From contig SZOZ01000005.1 of NCBI GenBank assembly GCA_030263455.1, positions 124,001-188,000 on the forward strand: DNA of 64,000 nucleotides. Direction: 5' to 3'. The position numbers and the translations under genes are program-made. Below are positions 33,360 through 63,678 of this stretch, piece after piece (the stretch's first letter is position 1; every line of letters starts with the position of its first letter). This DNA is from Synechococcales cyanobacterium CNB (lineage in GTDB: Bacteria; Planctomycetota; Phycisphaerae; Phycisphaerales; UBA1924). The notes beneath the pieces are model-generated. The model worked only from the letters and a program-made list of their open reading frames with translations, did no database searches and had not been told where the DNA came from.

Positions 33360-33538
33360 CGGGCGATGATACGGCCCCATGCACAGGCCGCACGGCATCA
33401 CGCGGCGTTCGCTTCCGAGCGGCTGCATTCAAACAGGCCTCCCCCGGCGTCGACCGCGTGCGTCCAGCCCTCCGTTGGTTCCCGTGGTTTCCGCCGCGGG
33501 TTGACCCACGCGGAGATCAGCCATACGGTTGCCCAGAT

Positions 33539-35161
<1,623 letters not shown>

Positions 35162-53303: not shown

Positions 53304-54476
<1,173 letters not shown>

Positions 54477-54482
54477 CGCGTC

Positions 54483-55475
54483 ATGGCGATCGCCAACGTG
54501 CCTCCAAAACCCAAGGTGGGTCGAGCGCCGTTTTTGCCCGGCGGCACGATTGCGACACGCGAACACCCGAGTGTGTCAACCGAGAACAGGCCTGCTCCAC
54601 AACGGCATATTGCCTTCGTTTCCCAACGTCTCGTCGAAGCCTCCACTGACATCCGACAAGGCCCACCGGAGCGCGCCGAGTTCCTGCACACTGTGCTCTG
54701 TCACGTCGGCTTTCCGCGACAAAGGACTGACGCGCGAGTCTTTGAGCGCACCAGCGGCAACGTGAGCGTCCGCCTGGAAGCAGGCACGCTGTACACGGGT
54801 GACGGCTGGCGTGCGCAGCCCCTTCCCTACGGCACCGTCCCTCGCCTCATCATGGTCCACCTGTCATCGGAGGCAATCCGCACCAGGCGGCGCACCGTCG
54901 AACTCGGCGACAGCGTTCGGCAGTTTCTCGCCAGGCTCGGCATGTCCGCCAGCGGCGGACCGCGAGGGGGATACGCGGCATTGGCCAGGCAGCTTGCGGC
55001 GCTGGCCGCGTGCCGGCTCACGCTCGGCATGCAGGAAGCAGGCCGCGTCGTCACGGTGGACGCCAAGCCGATCAAGCGCTTCGAGGCATGGTTGCACGGG
55101 GACGGCACGCAGCGGACGCTCTGGCCTGCCGCGCTGGAACTGTCCGAGGACTTCTACGGAACGCTCATCGAACACGCGGTCCCGCTCGACCATCGCGCCC
55201 TCGCCGCACTCAAGCACTCGGCGCTCGCCCTCGACGTGTACACGTGGCTCGCTCACCGGCTGTGCCGCGTGCGCGGTCATAGCGTGCGGCTGAGCTGGCA
55301 GAATCTTCGCGAGCAGTTCGGCCAGGAGTACCAGGACACCCGCAACTTCAAGCACGCCTTCCGCGCGGCGCTGAGACAGGTGCTCGCGGTGTACCCGGAT
55401 GCTCGCGTCAGCACGGTCCCCGGCGGACTGGAGTTGCGGCCGTCGCGCCCGCCGCTCAACCCGAAACTGTCGTGA
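54483..55475 (+). CDS. repA: RepA-family plasmid replication initiator
   Basis: 330 residues resembling the plasmid RepA (RepA_C-type) family: a Pro-rich N-terminus, LPYGTVPRLIMVHLSSEAIRTRRRTVELGDSVRQFLARLGMSASGG, then ALKHSALALDVYTWLAHRLCRV and SWQNLREQFG. The iteron origin follows immediately. It begins 7 bp after the integrase stop with no obvious ribosome-binding site, so ATG 54483 is provisional. A plasmid initiator inside a chromosomal element means that the excised form could replicate. Confidence 0.82.
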   Translation: MAIANVPPKPKVGRAPFLPGGTIATREHPSVSTENRPAPQRHIAFVSQRLVEASTDIRQGPPERAEFLHTVLCHVGFPRQRTDARVFERTSGNVSVRLEAGTLYTGDGWRAQPLPYGTVPRLIMVHLSSEAIRTRRRTVELGDSVRQFLARLGMSASGGPRGGYAALARQLAALAACRLTLGMQEAGRVVTVDAKPIKRFEAWLHGDGTQRTLWPAALELSEDFYGTLIEHAVPLDHRALAALKHSALALDVYTWLAHRLCRVRGHSVRLSWQNLREQFGQEYQDTRNFKHAFRAALRQVLAVYPDARVSTVPGGLELRPSRPPLNPKLS

Positions 55476-55969: not shown

Positions 55970-56617
55970 TCACGCCCGCCGGCGGCGACGCGCCCCGGTC
56001 AGGCCCATCAGGGAGAGCAGGGCGAGCGAGCCGGGTTCGGGTACAGCCGTGATGATGCGGATTTCGTCGTAGGCCGCGCCGAACTTGAGGGTGAAGTCCA
56101 GCCGCGTCCGGTCCGCGGAAATCTCGAAGGTGTCGAGCGAGCCGGGCGGCAGTTCCAGCCGCCTGCCGGGGCTGTTGCCGTAGGTCACGCCCGGGCGGCC
56201 GAGGAAGTCGTCCGTGCCGTTCATCGACGCCGTCTTGATGAGCACGCCGAGAATGGGCGCGTCGAAGACGACGTAGCCCGAGAGCAGCGCGTCGAAGCCG
56301 TCCACCGAGTCGGCATGGAACAGGTAGCTCTGCACCGCCGTCCCGGCGGAAACGAAGCCCGGCACGAGCAGCGATTCATGGTCCACCAGCCCGGTGTTGA
56401 CGTGATCGAGTTCCAGGTCGGCAAGCAGCGTCGTCTGCCGCTCGAAGAAGCCGCGGATCTCCGTGTCGCTCTCCCACTGGTTGAGCGCGATGTTGGCCGG
56501 CGGCTCGGCGATGACGGCTGCCCCGCCGACCTCGATGATGTCGGCAAGGGCGGGTGAGGCGGACAGGGCGGCGATGGCGCCGACGACGACTGTGGACAAG
56601 GTGGTGTGGTAACGCAT
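55970..56617 (-). CDS. PEP-CTERM exported protein
   Basis: 215 residues with an N-terminal signal peptide (LSTVVVGAIAALSASPALA), a beta-rich ectodomain and a classic sorting tail: VPEPGSLALLSLMGLTG followed by RRRRR. Exosortase would cut it and anchor it to the envelope. No exosortase is in the window, so it must rely on a host enzyme. It lies inside the mobile element, so it is probably cargo. Confidence 0.85.
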   Translation of the reverse strand: MRYHTTLSTVVVGAIAALSASPALADIIEVGGAAVIAEPPANIALNQWESDTEIRGFFERQTTLLADLELDHVNTGLVDHESLLVPGFVSAGTAVQSYLFHADSVDGFDALLSGYVVFDAPILGVLIKTASMNGTDDFLGRPGVTYGNSPGRRLELPPGSLDTFEISADRTRLDFTLKFGAAYDEIRIITAVPEPGSLALLSLMGLTGARRRRRA

Positions 56618-57546: not shown

Positions 57547-58824
57547 ATGACTGAGCCGACAATTGTCTGTCCATCCTGCAAGGCCGAGATCAAGCTGACC
57601 GAGTCACTGGCGGCTCCGCTCATCGAGTCCACGCGCCGGCAGTACGAGCAGCAGATCGCCAAGAAAGATGCTGATATTGCGAAGCGAGAGTCTGCACTCA
57701 AGGAACAGCAGGCGGCACTTGCGAAGGCCAAAGGGGAGATCGACGATCAGGTTGCTGCCAAGCTGAAAGCGGAGCGCGCCACCATCGCCGCTGAAGAAGC
57801 GAAGAAGGCCCGGGTTGCGATCGGCAATGATCTTGAGCAGAAGGCCAAAGAGCTCGCGGAACTCAACGAGGTGCTCAAGCAGCGTGACGAGAAACTCGCC
57901 GAGGCGCAGAAGGCCCAGGCCGAGTTGATCCGCAAGCAGCGTGAGCTCGATGACGCCAAGCGCGAAATGGAACTGAACATCGAGAAGCGCGTCCAGGAAT
58001 CACTCGGCGCAACACGCGAACAGGCGAAGAAGGAGGCCGAGGATTCCCTCAAGATGAAGGTCGCAGAGAAGGAACAGACCATCGCGTCCATGCAGAAGCA
58101 GATCGAGGAGCTGAAACGCAAAGCAGAGCAAGGGTCGCAGCAACTCCAGGGCGAAGTTCAGGAGCTTGAACTGGAAGCGATGCTCCGTGAGAAGTTCCCA
58201 CAGGATTCAATCGAGCCGGTCGCCAAAGGCGAACATGGCGGCGATGCCATCCAGCGCGTCATCGGTCCGATGGGTCAACCGTGCGGGACGATTCTGTGGG
58301 AGTCGAAGCGCACCAAGAACTGGACCGACGGCTGGCTGGCCAAGTTGCGCGAGGACCAGCGCGCCGCGAAGGCAGAACTTGCCGTTATCGTCAGCCAGGC
58401 ATTGCCGAAGGATGTGGAGACCTTCAACCTGATCGACGGTGTGTGGGTCACGTCCTACCGCTGCGCATTGCCGGTCGCTGTGGCGCTCCGTCACTCGATC
58501 ATCGAACTCGCCGCGACTCGGACCGCCAGCGAGGGACAGCAAACGAAGATGGAGCTTGTTTACCAGTACCTCACCGGTCCACGCTTTCGCCACCGCGTTC
58601 AGGCCATAGTCGAGAAGTTCACCGACATGCAGGAGGACCTGGAAAGGGAGCGCAAGACCATGACGCGCCTCTGGGCAAAGCGCGAGGAGCAGATTCGCGG
58701 CGTCATCGAATCCACCGCCGGCATGTACGGCGACCTTCAGGGCATCGCAGGGAAGACGCTGCAGGAGATTGAGGGGCTGGATTTGAGAATGCTTGAGAGT
58801 AGTGACGGACAGTATGTGGACTGA
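57547..58824 (+). CDS. DUF2130 protein: zinc ribbon, coiled coil and PD-(D/E)xK-like nuclease motif
   Basis: 425 residues. An N-terminal CPSC pair (residues 8-11) suggests a small zinc ribbon. Residues about 30-205 form a long charged coiled coil. A conserved globular domain follows, with E210, D233 in KGEHGGDAIQRV and E252-x-K254 in GTILWESKRTKNW, then EDQ near 270: the spacing and context of a PD-(D/E)xK nuclease active site. This is the family's named domain (DUF2130) of unknown function; nuclease activity is inference. The ATG at 57547 is chosen over an upstream frame because the CPSC ribbon then lies at the usual distance. First gene of the operon, 43 bp before the next. Confidence 0.8.
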   Translation: MTEPTIVCPSCKAEIKLTESLAAPLIESTRRQYEQQIAKKDADIAKRESALKEQQAALAKAKGEIDDQVAAKLKAERATIAAEEAKKARVAIGNDLEQKAKELAELNEVLKQRDEKLAEAQKAQAELIRKQRELDDAKREMELNIEKRVQESLGATREQAKKEAEDSLKMKVAEKEQTIASMQKQIEELKRKAEQGSQQLQGEVQELELEAMLREKFPQDSIEPVAKGEHGGDAIQRVIGPMGQPCGTILWESKRTKNWTDGWLAKLREDQRAAKAELAVIVSQALPKDVETFNLIDGVWVTSYRCALPVAVALRHSIIELAATRTASEGQQTKMELVYQYLTGPRFRHRVQAIVEKFTDMQEDLERERKTMTRLWAKREEQIRGVIESTAGMYGDLQGIAGKTLQEIEGLDLRMLESSDGQYVD

Positions 58825-58867
58825 ACGCAGCACTGAACAAGGCTCGAAATAGGAGGCAACGCGACCA

Positions 58868-60607
58868 GTGCAAATCCAGTCCGTCAATAGCCTGCTCACT
58901 CCCGCCGGACTAGGCCCACCGACACTCCGCGCGCTGATTCCCAACGTCGACAACTACACTGTGCTTCTCCTGCAACCAGAAGGACACATCGAGGCCAGTC
59001 CCGCCGGTGTGCGCCATCAGGACCGTGCGCTTGCACACAGCCAGTTCCGAGGTTTCTTGAATGATGCTCGCACCAACAACGTCGCACTCGCGGTCACACC
59101 TGAGTACTCAATGCCGTGGGAGACTTTGTCGGAGGCACTTCAGACGGGCTGCACCCCTTCGGACGGTTCGCTTTGGGCACTTGGTTGCGAAAGCATCAGA
59201 TACACCGAGCTTGAGGCTTTGAAGCAGACTCTTGCTCCTCATGCCACTGTTCTCTTTGAGGCACTTCAGGCCGACGACCACCGGTTTGTCGATCCACTCG
59301 CATACGTGTTTGTTGCACCTCCGACGAAGCCCAGCGGTGCAAGCAGGGTGGTCCTGCTTGTCCAGTTCAAGACCTGCCCGATGGGGGACGACGGCCACTT
59401 CGAGGTCAATGGAATGCAGCGGGGAACCCGCGTCTACCAGTTCGGCGGCGATTCCGGAAATCCACGCCTGCTTTCTCTGATTTGCTCGGATGCGTTTGAG
59501 TTCCTGGACCCCGAGGCTGCACAGGTCTATGACCGAGCCCTTGTACTTCACATTCAGCTCAACCGGCAACCACGTCAACATCAGTACCGGCAGTACCGTG
59601 ATCGGCTCTTCCGATTCCGTGGAGGCGCTACCGAAATACTCTGTCTCAATTGGGCGAAAGATGTACGAGAAGCATGCGGCGGCGCCACCCATTGCTGGAA
59701 CAACATTTCCGGCTCAGCATGGTATCTCCCGGACACATTTGACGAGCCGGACACGACCCTGTCACTCAACCATCGCAACGGCCTGTACTATACGTGGTTT
59801 CAGGCAATGCGATCCCACGCGATGTTCTTCAACTACGAGCCGGCTGCCTATTTTGTCACGGCGAGCAAAGTCGTGCATCGCGGCGTAACCGCCTCACTCT
59901 CTCGACGGCGCGGACCTCAACTCACTGCAATGCACACCTGGGATAACCATGCATCGGCCTGGGTGCATCATCCCGGCCCCACAGACGGCTTCGCGACAGT
60001 TGTCGCGGAAAGCGGTAACGCGCAACACGACATCGCCCACCTGGCAGATGTCAACCCGTTTAATGCCGAGCGTGTTCTAGCTCTGTGCGCTGGAAGTATC
60101 GGCACTAACGCCAATTGGTATCACCTCAGACAACTTGACTCTTGCGGCATCGAGACATCGGAAGTCATACGACGCATGACCTTCTGCCAAGACAACGATC
60201 ACAGCGCCCAGACGTTTCGTGTACGGCGCCTCAGGCGATGCAGACGGCTATGGGACATCCTGAATACGCCCGACCACCTACCGCCCGCGCTTGACGATCT
60301 CAAGAACGGCTTCCGTCTTGATTGGGCTCCGCATCAGAACGTCATATCGTCAGCCGGCCGGCGAGCTACAGCTATCTATATGGGTGAAGACGCCAGCGAT
60401 GTCGAGATCGAGTCGGTCGGGAAGCGGATGGCCGAATATCTTCACAGGGCGTCACCCGATCCAGACGCAGCAATTGAAGCCCGGCAGCGGCTTCACCTCT
60501 GGTATCGCCAGGACGATGGAGCACTCCGGTTATTCGACCGCTCTCGCTACCTGAGAATCGACGAGCCTCGATCTGCTTCGGAATTTGACATCGCGAGGAC
60601 GTTCTGA
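58868..60607 (+). CDS. Nitrilase-superfamily-like hydrolase
   Basis: 579 residues. The N-terminal ~300 residues look like a carbon-nitrogen hydrolase: E79 in LAVTPEYSMPW, K168 in LVQFKTC and C206 in LLSLICSDAFEF occupy the positions of the Glu-Lys-Cys triad. The C-terminal ~280 residues are unrecognised. Such domains hydrolyse amides or nitriles; in defence settings, RT-linked nitrilases (DRT class 1) are known. Start is GTG 58868 with AGGAGG 11 bp upstream. The stop overlaps the start of the ATPase gene (TGATG), so the two are tightly coupled. Substrate unknown. Confidence 0.7.
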   Translation: MQIQSVNSLLTPAGLGPPTLRALIPNVDNYTVLLLQPEGHIEASPAGVRHQDRALAHSQFRGFLNDARTNNVALAVTPEYSMPWETLSEALQTGCTPSDGSLWALGCESIRYTELEALKQTLAPHATVLFEALQADDHRFVDPLAYVFVAPPTKPSGASRVVLLVQFKTCPMGDDGHFEVNGMQRGTRVYQFGGDSGNPRLLSLICSDAFEFLDPEAAQVYDRALVLHIQLNRQPRQHQYRQYRDRLFRFRGGATEILCLNWAKDVREACGGATHCWNNISGSAWYLPDTFDEPDTTLSLNHRNGLYYTWFQAMRSHAMFFNYEPAAYFVTASKVVHRGVTASLSRRRGPQLTAMHTWDNHASAWVHHPGPTDGFATVVAESGNAQHDIAHLADVNPFNAERVLALCAGSIGTNANWYHLRQLDSCGIETSEVIRRMTFCQDNDHSAQTFRVRRLRRCRRLWDILNTPDHLPPALDDLKNGFRLDWAPHQNVISSAGRRATAIYMGEDASDVEIESVGKRMAEYLHRASPDPDAAIEARQRLHLWYRQDDGALRLFDRSRYLRIDEPRSASEFDIARTF

Positions 60608-63600
60608 TGCTCGATATTGGCCAACTGCGCGAGAGACTTGCTCATCGCTTCCCGGATGCAGAACAGGTGGAAGACAGCGTTATCCGTTTCACGCGTAGAT
60701 CGAATGGCCACCCATACGCCATCTACTACATCGATATCAGCGCGAATCTACCTGCTACACGCGAGGCGATAACGGACTATCAGGATCGCGTGATAGGCAA
60801 GCGGTACTTTGATGGCAGGAAGAGCCTGCAATGGAGCAACTATCTCTATTTTGTGGTCAGCGACGAGCTCGCTCGCACCGGTTCGGTTGAACAGGCCAAA
60901 CAATTGATAGAGCTAGATCGCACCTATGCTCGCAAGTTCGTCATTGCTGAAAGCGAGCTGGATGCTGCGTTCGAGGCTCCTCCGTCGGCATCGCCGGACG
61001 CACTGCCAGAAGCCAGCATCCACTCGGTGTGGCTCGCAAAGCTGACGGAGGCTGGTCTTGATAAGGTGGTACTGAGCGACAAATCCCTTCCCAGTCGCTT
61101 GTCACTGATTGAGGCGGCATCCAGTACAGCGTCGCCCCAACCCAAGGCGCGACCACCGCATTCATCCGTCAGCCCGCTGCCGTTTCTGAAATCACTTCAG
61201 CTTGCGAAGTTCCGTGATTTTCCTCAGCAGCGCAGCTTTGACTTTGGCAAGGTAACTCTTGTCGTGGGCGCCAACGGTTCAGGGAAGACCTCACTCCTTG
61301 AAGCCATCGAGCTTCTGTATTGTGGACGGAACAAGCGCAATCCTGACGCGAACGATGCGTACAGCATCGCCGCCGTATTCGCGGACGGCAGCAAGGAGAC
61401 TGCGACGCGCTCACGACCTCAGAAGATCTTCAGAGAACGGAACCTGAAGTGGTACGGTCAATCAGAGATCAAGACGAACAATCTCTTCATGAGCTTTGGA
61501 CTGTTCAACTTTCTCGATACCGATGCCGCAGTGGGCCTCGCGGAATCGACGGCACGGCTTGAAGACAATCTCTCCAATCTGCTCGTGGGGTCTGAGGCGT
61601 CCAAGACGTGGCGTGAGATCGAGCGAGTACATGACGCCACTACAGCCAAGCTCCGCGAACTGCGGCCTCTTGAAGCCCAAATCAAGAGCGAGCTAGACAC
61701 GCTTGACGCTCGTCTCAAGGAGTCGGCAGGTGTCAAGCAGGAATCCGACGCGATACTCACGCGGATCGAGGAGATGGTGCGCCGTCTCAAATGGCCTGTG
61801 CCCAGCAAGGACAGATCCGCGTATCCCGAACTGCTTCTCGAATCTCTTCCGGAACTTGAATCGCTCGCCCTGCAGGCTGCCGCGTTTGAATGGGCGGAAG
61901 CTCCCGTTTCAGTGGACAGACTGAAGAAATACAGCGGCGACGCGACGAAGACATGCGACAGGGTCGAAGCAGAGATGGAGCGCCTGGATGAGCATCGAAA
62001 GAAGGAACGGAGACTCGTAGATACGGCCCGCCGTGTCCAGAGCGCCTTGACGTTGATAACTGAGGCGGCGCGCATGGTAGACGCCGGCCTGCCCACTCGC
62101 GCGGAGGAACTTCGCACGCTGCAGAACACCGTGACATCCAATGGCGGATTGCTAGCCGGCTGTGCCGACGCGTTTTTGACCGTACTCGCGAAGAGCCACC
62201 CTGAGGCGTCAGTTGTCGCACTCACCGCGGCTTCCAAGGAAGCACGCGTGGCTGCACAGAAAGCAGTGAACGCCGCGAAGGAAGAACACGCAAACTTCAG
62301 ACAGCTTCGCGATCACTCAGTCAACCTGGCGCAACAGCTTCGCGACATCGCAGCCCAGATCCTCAAGGACAGTCCTCTATCCGAAGAGTGTCCCCTGTGC
62401 CATACTCAGTTCGCCCCGGGAGAATTGGCCAAGCACATGCAGCTTGGCGTGGATCAGCACGTCGAAGCTCGCGGACAGGCTTTGCTGTCGCAGTTGCGGC
62501 AGCGCGAAGAGGCACTGCGCGAAGCCATGGTCGTTGAGAATGCGTCAGCGTGGCTCGGGAAGTTCTGCGAGCGGGCAGCGATCGATAGAGAGGTCACTGT
62601 CGTGGCCGCACTGTCGAAGATCAATGGAGCACGGCAGGCGCTTGTCGAGGCACAGCAACGACTTGAGGCATTGAATAAGGAACTTGAAGCTCTGGAATCC
62701 CAAGGCCTACCCGTTGCCAGGTTGGATCAACTCCTCGCCGGCTTGCGCGAGTCTGGCTACGCTCTGCCCGATTGGACGAAGCAAAATATCGACCAAGTGC
62801 GCGCCACGATTGAGCGGGAACAAGCGAACACCGCCAAAGCGCTGGAGAAGGAACGGGCGAATGCCGACACACTTCGGCGAGCACTTGAGGCAAGCTTGGG
62901 ATTGCGGGAATCCAATGCAGAGGGCCCGAAGGTAGCCATATCCCAACTCAAGGAGCGCCGCGCGGTTGCAGACAGCCTTCGGGAGAAACTCGGCACTCTG
63001 CTCAAGTCGTTTCCCTGGCCGGGAGACAGACCGCTTTCTGAGCTGGTAGTTGAGACCGATTCAATCCGCAAAGTCGCAGCGGAGTTCCAAGCCGCGGTTG
63101 GCAGGGAGCAGCAGGCGAAGACCATTGTCGCGGACTCCACAAAGCGGAGGGAGCAACTCGCTAAACAACTGGCGGAAGTGAGCCTCCGCATTGAGCGGTT
63201 TGTCAAAGCTGACAAGGCTCTGGAGGTCATCCAGCAGAAGCACTCTCTGACCGGCGCGATGGAAGCGGCGCTCAAGCGGAACCGTGCGCAGATCGAGGCG
63301 ATCTTTGGCCGTATCCACGCGCCCGCAGAGTTCTCAGGACTTGGGGGGCGTCTTTGCACGCTCGTCAGAAAGAATGGAGCAGCCGAGGCTACGCTGAGTG
63401 AGATCAGCACCGGTCAACGCGCCGCCTTTGCCCTGTCGATTTTCTTAGCTCAGAATGCACAGCTTCGAGTGGCCCCGCCTGTGGTTTTGATCGACGACCC
63501 GATCGCCCATGTCGATGATCTGAATGCGCTGTCGTTTCTGGACTACTTGCGCGAGCTTGCTTTAGTGGGCGGTAGACAGATCCTGTTTGCAACTGCAAGC

Positions 63601-63678
63601 GAGAAGCTCGCCGCGCTCTTCGAGCGCAAGTTCGATTTCTTAGGAGATGACTTCCGCCGCCATGAACTTCGCCGGTAA
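60607..63678 (+). CDS. SMC/Rad50-like ABC ATPase with zinc hook
   Basis: 1,023 residues. An unfamiliar N-terminal domain (about 1-190, with SANLPATREAI and SDELARTGSVEQAKQL) precedes the ATPase. Walker A is GANGSGKTS at 221-229. Long coiled coils flank a CPLC zinc hook near 596-599. The signature EISTGQRAAFALS is near 932, and Walker B VVLIDDP has Asp in place of the usual catalytic Glu. The H-loop His is not evident (FATASEK). The layout matches Rad50/RecN-like and ABC-3C-type defence ATPases, which sense DNA or assemble on it. The gene overlaps the nitrilase-like gene by 1 bp. Confidence 0.82.
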   Translation: MLDIGQLRERLAHRFPDAEQVEDSVIRFTRRSNGHPYAIYYIDISANLPATREAITDYQDRVIGKRYFDGRKSLQWSNYLYFVVSDELARTGSVEQAKQLIELDRTYARKFVIAESELDAAFEAPPSASPDALPEASIHSVWLAKLTEAGLDKVVLSDKSLPSRLSLIEAASSTASPQPKARPPHSSVSPLPFLKSLQLAKFRDFPQQRSFDFGKVTLVVGANGSGKTSLLEAIELLYCGRNKRNPDANDAYSIAAVFADGSKETATRSRPQKIFRERNLKWYGQSEIKTNNLFMSFGLFNFLDTDAAVGLAESTARLEDNLSNLLVGSEASKTWREIERVHDATTAKLRELRPLEAQIKSELDTLDARLKESAGVKQESDAILTRIEEMVRRLKWPVPSKDRSAYPELLLESLPELESLALQAAAFEWAEAPVSVDRLKKYSGDATKTCDRVEAEMERLDEHRKKERRLVDTARRVQSALTLITEAARMVDAGLPTRAEELRTLQNTVTSNGGLLAGCADAFLTVLAKSHPEASVVALTAASKEARVAAQKAVNAAKEEHANFRQLRDHSVNLAQQLRDIAAQILKDSPLSEECPLCHTQFAPGELAKHMQLGVDQHVEARGQALLSQLRQREEALREAMVVENASAWLGKFCERAAIDREVTVVAALSKINGARQALVEAQQRLEALNKELEALESQGLPVARLDQLLAGLRESGYALPDWTKQNIDQVRATIEREQANTAKALEKERANADTLRRALEASLGLRESNAEGPKVAISQLKERRAVADSLREKLGTLLKSFPWPGDRPLSELVVETDSIRKVAAEFQAAVGREQQAKTIVADSTKRREQLAKQLAEVSLRIERFVKADKALEVIQQKHSLTGAMEAALKRNRAQIEAIFGRIHAPAEFSGLGGRLCTLVRKNGAAEATLSEISTGQRAAFALSIFLAQNAQLRVAPPVVLIDDPIAHVDDLNALSFLDYLRELALVGGRQILFATASEKLAALFERKFDFLGDDFRRHELRR

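Follow-up and report, generated by a model that had tools for sequence, protein, structure and literature searches.

Three genes follow one another at positions 57547–63678 of the window (i.e., the whole stretch of 64,000 nucleotides under study) and encode a DUF2130 protein, a nitrilase-like protein and a zinc-hook ATPase. According to the original prediction, they would form a three-gene defence system that had not been described so far, which raises the question of which of these genes belong together, whether they act in immunity and how novel such a system is.

All three open reading frames were recovered on the forward strand, at 57547–58824 (DUF2130 gene; Pfam PF09903, 2e-81), 58868–60607 (gene 2, 579 aa) and 60607–63678 (gene 3, 1023 aa; Pfam SMC_N, 5e-13), with a spacing of +43 bp between the DUF2130 gene and gene 2 and of −1 bp between gene 2 and gene 3, as initially described. 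Gene 2 starts with GTG and has AGGAGG upstream. As also predicted, the three genes are less GC-rich than the DNA around them (0.58–0.60, versus 0.654 at 36–57 kb and 0.707 at 1–33 kb), and the named motifs are in place, i.e., E252 and K254 in the DUF2130 protein, E79, K168 and C206 in gene 2, and the ATPase motifs of gene 3 given below. At third codon positions, the GC content of the DUF2130 gene (0.756) differs from that of genes 2 and 3 (0.628 and 0.646) and resembles that of the upstream integrase (0.744). Behind this tyrosine integrase comes a gene for plasmid replication, RepA_C (53304–55475, both upstream of genes 2 and 3), while a small protein encoded on the reverse strand between the replication gene and the candidate defence genes (55970–56617) features a signal peptide, a PEP-CTERM-like end and an Arg-rich tail.

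A search for gene 2 over 84,980 species genomes returned 42 loci, to which Polaromonas pPNAP01 was added (43 loci in total). Gene 3 lies directly 3′ of gene 2 in 39/39 loci with intact downstream DNA, and in most of them the two genes overlap by 1–11 bp (mostly 1, 4 or 8 bp). The four loci left aside are L017/L054, where gene 2 reaches the contig end and gene 3 continues on another contig, L022 and L046, which are contig-end or truncated copies, and the fragment L016. The carriers belong to Acidobacteriota, Nitrospirota, Planctomycetota, Pseudomonadota, Bacteroidota, Bacillota and archaea, and no recurring neighbour besides gene 3 was seen around the gene 2 loci. Moreover, the distances computed for gene 2 and for gene 3 are correlated (Spearman 0.86; reached in 0/999 permutations): genes 2 and 3 are co-inherited and evolve together.

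The AlphaFold model of gene 2, built from 36 relatives, has a mean pLDDT of 91.4. With VIA-align, its residues 24–342 align with structures of the nitrilase superfamily at Z 14–17, among which the NAD synthetase 4f4h_B (Z 16.6, rmsd 4.0, 240 residues) and yeast Nit2 4hg3 (Z 16.1); since many enzymes are tied over this range, the substrate of gene 2 cannot be read from its fold. E79, K168, E179 and C206, which we take to be the residues expected of a nitrilase, are invariant in 36/36 relatives. Thus modelled, gene 2 has a nitrilase fold with a predicted Glu-Lys-(Glu)-Cys catalytic set, followed by a C-terminal extension of ~240 aa beyond the nitrilase domain. At the sequence level, Pfam returned nothing beyond noise for gene 2 of the window, CN_hydrolase included, this family matching weakly 2/36 relatives; likewise, a sequence search of the PDB with gene 2, profile included, gave no real match, and gene 2 was not found in phage and viral-contig collections.

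Gene 3 carries the Walker A motif GANGSGKT, the hook CPLC (residues 595–598), the signature STGQR (934–938) and the Walker B motif LIDDP (961–965), all of them as originally reported, and the key residues of Walker A, of the signature, of the Walker B ‘DD’ and of the CPxC hook are invariant in 34/34 relatives. The solved structures closest to its heads are those of Rad50, SMC and RecF. The PADLOC LmuB models match 34/34 relatives (best 5e-41) and gene 3 of the window itself (8e-34), ahead of mad3 (1e-22) and AriA. Together with the nitrilase fold and the E/K/E/C residues conserved in 36/36 relatives of gene 2, this supports the part of the original prediction that saw in the two genes a defence-like sensor ATPase and a nitrilase-like effector. 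What had been overlooked is that the first ~190 residues of gene 3 are a separate domain (residues 1–191; 60607–61179), of which 33/34 versions across relatives are matched by Pfam PF20289 (MComp1, “ABC-3C middle component 1”; best 3e-9), above the family cut-off in several of them, the match of the window's own domain (0.043) falling below it. Based on these sequence matches, gene 3 is predicted to fuse a middle component (LmuC-like, MComp1) to a Rad50/SMC-like ATPase (LmuB-like). The N-terminal domain is linked to the separate LmuC of locus L066 (see below) solely through PF20289, as hhalign found no match between the two. A fold search with residues 1–124 of the model (pLDDT ~90) peaked at Z 7.7, with many restriction-endonuclease-like folds at 5–7, a middling similarity that does not suffice to assign a fold. 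Finally, among 392 genomes of the phylum, a profile of this domain retrieved nothing but the window and one weak match in G371 that we rejected as false, the protein being long and unrelated.

In the literature, Lamassu is equated with ABC-3C and consists of an effector (LmuA), a middle component (LmuC), which some systems lack, and LmuB, a protein of ~650 aa in which an E-to-Q change in Walker B is generally present but not defining, while a C-N hydrolase is listed among the LmuA effector domains (PMC10586767). Type I systems have two genes and type II three, and LmuA is liberated upon activation to form a tetramer (PMC12409362). In our loci, a candidate effector in the LmuA position adjoins the ATPase in 39/39 cases. 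The PADLOC check suggested along with the original prediction gave a split answer: gene 3 is recognised as LmuB, as mentioned above, while gene 2 of the window matches none of the LmuA models of PADLOC-DB 2.0.0. Among the relatives of gene 2, LmuA model PDLC03850 nevertheless matches 9/36 (best 4e-9, at L045). Between the gene 2 profile and the full PDLC03850 protein, the hhalign similarity is modest (64%, 6e-5) and limited to the nitrilase domain, with E76, K163 and C205 aligned opposite E79, K168 and C206 of gene 2, so that a nitrilase-type Lamassu is already catalogued.

Searching the pair-bearing genomes with MComp1 uncovered three further Lamassu loci (L065, L066 and L067), whose LmuB-family sensors come with three other effectors, which indicates that effectors are exchangeable. 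Close to the window pair is L067 (Thauera), with a full-length LmuA (PDLC03850, 9e-279) and a 1211-aa LmuB (PDLC03861): it likewise consists of two genes, which follow each other as in the window, with the nitrilase E/K/C residues in the effector and a middle-component-like region (matched by Pfam MComp1) fused to a hooked SMC-like ATPase with a ‘DDP’ Walker B. However, the window pair is most likely a divergent sister of this system: its gene 2 shows no significant BLASTP similarity to this LmuA (best E 0.037), the relationship appearing at the profile level and in the nitrilase domain only, and gene 3 is ~190 aa shorter than this LmuB. Canonical type II systems (DdmABC; L066) share with the pair an effector, a middle component and an SMC-like ATPase, as well as the hook and the MComp1 family, but have a separate gene for the middle component, a nuclease effector (LmuA PDLC03848 in L066, Cap4-like by our reading) and a shorter ATPase (792 aa). 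In L065, a single 1197-aa protein holds both LmuC and a hooked LmuB-type ATPase, similarly to gene 3, whereas an MBL-fold hydrolase and a trypsin-like LmuA serve as effectors, a pairing described in PMC12799240. As for the RT-nitrilase systems (DRT type I), they also use a nitrilase domain against phages (PMC9122126), but joined to a reverse transcriptase and without SMC-like ATPase. At face value, the 1023 aa of gene 3 and its ‘DD’ Walker B argue against a Lamassu affiliation when set against reviewed LmuB proteins (~650 aa, usually E-to-Q). Yet, a PADLOC LmuB model covers the whole of the 1211-aa ‘DDP’ protein, and the E-to-Q change, absent from 34/34 relatives of gene 3 (all with D), is equally absent from the PADLOC-recognised L066 and L067, which also have D. 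In Lachnospiraceae (L045:9995-13536), the MComp1-ATPase has 615 aa, without long coiled coil and hook, and a ‘DEP’ Walker B; this pair may be an intermediate between the two nitrilase-Lamassu subfamilies.

Overall, genes 2 and 3 quite probably constitute an immune system of Lamassu/ABC-3C type with two genes, composed of a nitrilase effector and an MComp1-fused sensor ATPase. Given the nitrilase effector, the fused MComp1/LmuB and the related sensors combined with other effectors, the pair most likely represents, within the Lamassu (ABC-3C) systems with a nitrilase effector, a divergent and little-noticed branch. Hence, the system is less novel than originally thought: the defining parts of Lamassu/ABC-3C are present, and PADLOC-DB already includes a two-gene system with a nitrilase LmuA and a fused LmuB (L067). 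In the literature searched, neither a named nitrilase-Lamassu nor a named DUF2130 defence gene was found.

The taxonomic distribution of the pair is patchy. It was not found in the same-genus genome nor in the listed same-family genomes, and it occurs in 2 of ~390 genomes sampled from the phylum and, likewise, in 2 of ~390 sampled from the class. The tree of gene 2 mixes phyla and domains, the window sequence branching beside one from Acidobacteriota, within a supported group that also includes Nitrospirota, Actinomycetota and archaea. In agreement with the original view of these genes as mobile cargo, this distribution suggests that the pair moves as one piece among distantly related bacteria and archaea. 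In the genome of the window, the pair lies inside a region of ~49 kb running from tRNA-Met (33538–33613) to ~82749, counted in window coordinates (G000:C5:157614-206749). Sequence similarity to G576, a genome of the same genus, breaks off at the 3′ end of the tRNA and is back by ~C5:208344, while a 13-bp copy of the tRNA-Met end (GCCCCCGCTATTC), a putative att site, is found at 82737; the region is likely a genomic island. Just downstream of the pair, outside the window, are defence genes that had been overlooked (L049:3165-14320): a SNF2 helicase, a toxin-like pair made of M78 (ImmA/IrrE) and DUF4411, and the type III genes Mod and Res, which flank a Schlafen/AlbA-Fic-C protein. Elsewhere, Hachiman is among the neighbours at L004, and 121 neighbour proteins include members of the AbiEii, Fic and Mrr families and of type I and type III restriction. 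Judging from its neighbours, the window pair appears to sit in a defence island.

Could the DUF2130 gene nonetheless be an accessory nuclease recruited by the pair in some lineages, thereby making a three-gene system? Of ~40 loci, 3 have it next to the pair, in two lineages and on opposite sides: 43 bp upstream for the window, and behind gene 3 for one Polaromonas lineage (51 bp downstream and on one strand in Polaromonas eurypsychrophila, L018, and likewise in L017/L054), nowhere else. The proteins concerned, right after gene 3 in two Polaromonas, are distant DUF2130 members (L018:14880-16346 and L054:2641-4158), and L018, missed by a single-sequence search, came to light through Pfam on the neighbours, after which a sensitive search and PF09903 were applied over whole genomes. 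With the window, the Polaromonas case is a second independent adjacency, which is unlikely by chance: at ~0.09 DUF2130 per genome (13/149), ~0.002 would be expected among 76 flanking positions, an estimate that fails if defence islands are enriched in DUF2130 as such. Against such a recruitment, DUF2130 is absent beside the other ~37 loci, its position differs between the window and Polaromonas, the two versions share 27% identity, and its third-position GC is unlike that of genes 2 and 3. Furthermore, DUF2130 is not clearly enriched along with the system, because it is present in 5/36 system-bearing genomes versus 13/149 background genomes, and it is common on rhizobial plasmids, with no match to gene 2 or gene 3 on 41 DUF2130-carrying plasmids. 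The neighbourhoods rule out DUF2130 as a core component, and we regard its recruitment as very unlikely; by this comparison of loci, it is not part of the conserved system, and the pair would not need it. The trio of the original prediction is thus reduced to a strict pair (39 loci), which is conserved across genomes while the trio is not.

Another reading, in which a Rad50-like motor and an unusual partner serve DNA repair or genome maintenance instead of immunity, can invoke the structures nearest to the heads of gene 3, but it fits poorly with so patchy and cross-domain a distribution, with a partner that is a nitrilase and not a nuclease, with the MComp1 and LmuB matches and with the restriction and other defence genes nearby; we regard it as very unlikely. 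The nitrilase might also make or remove a small signal, through amidation, deamidation or acyl transfer, that acts on another target, and not be directly toxic. Members of the nitrilase superfamily are amidases, glutaminase domains for amide transfer and also the acyltransferase Lnt, and the matches of the gene 2 model include both NAD synthetase glutaminase domains and Lnt. Besides, genome G071 encodes distant nitrilase-like proteins next to CHAT-protease-like ones, an arrangement known from other conflict systems. However, with two conserved genes only, there is no conserved downstream receptor for a signal, and this role seems unlikely. The G071 proteins (L002:70-3288 and L003:472-3471) are 22% and 19% identical to gene 2 and keep the triad, one of them with a long C-terminal extension, and are possibly part of another nitrilase conflict system.

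For the nitrilase-effector Lamassu that we favour, the best explanation builds on what is observed, i.e., the pairing, the domain content, the catalytic residues, the co-inheritance and the patchy cross-phylum distribution, whereas sensing, release and toxicity are borrowed from Lamassu. By analogy, gene 3 would dimerise through its zinc hook and bind structures of phage or plasmid DNA, such as ends, hairpins or replication intermediates. In the resting complex, it would hold the nitrilase inactive, the C-terminal part of gene 2 probably docking on the ATPase. Recognition of DNA would release or oligomerise the nitrilase, and the freed enzyme would hydrolyse an essential amide-containing molecule of the cell, thereby stopping growth before the phage matures (abortive infection). 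That a Lamassu-type sensor unleashes a nitrilase-family amidohydrolase on an essential amide-containing metabolite or protein, in a subfamily missed by current defence models and moved between bacteria and archaea, is a scenario that we put forward tentatively. To our knowledge, no bacterial immune system has been demonstrated to use this effector chemistry.

A speculative trio has therefore become a precise claim about a two-gene, middle-component-fused, nitrilase-effector subfamily of Lamassu, present in two domains of life and in many phyla. Its novelty lies in the divergence of the subfamily and in an effector whose window version escapes PADLOC-DB 2.0.0, for which more than 35 relatives and their alignment offer the material for a better model. 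With the predicted catalytic residues named, the substrate of a nitrilase effector in immunity becomes a directly testable question.
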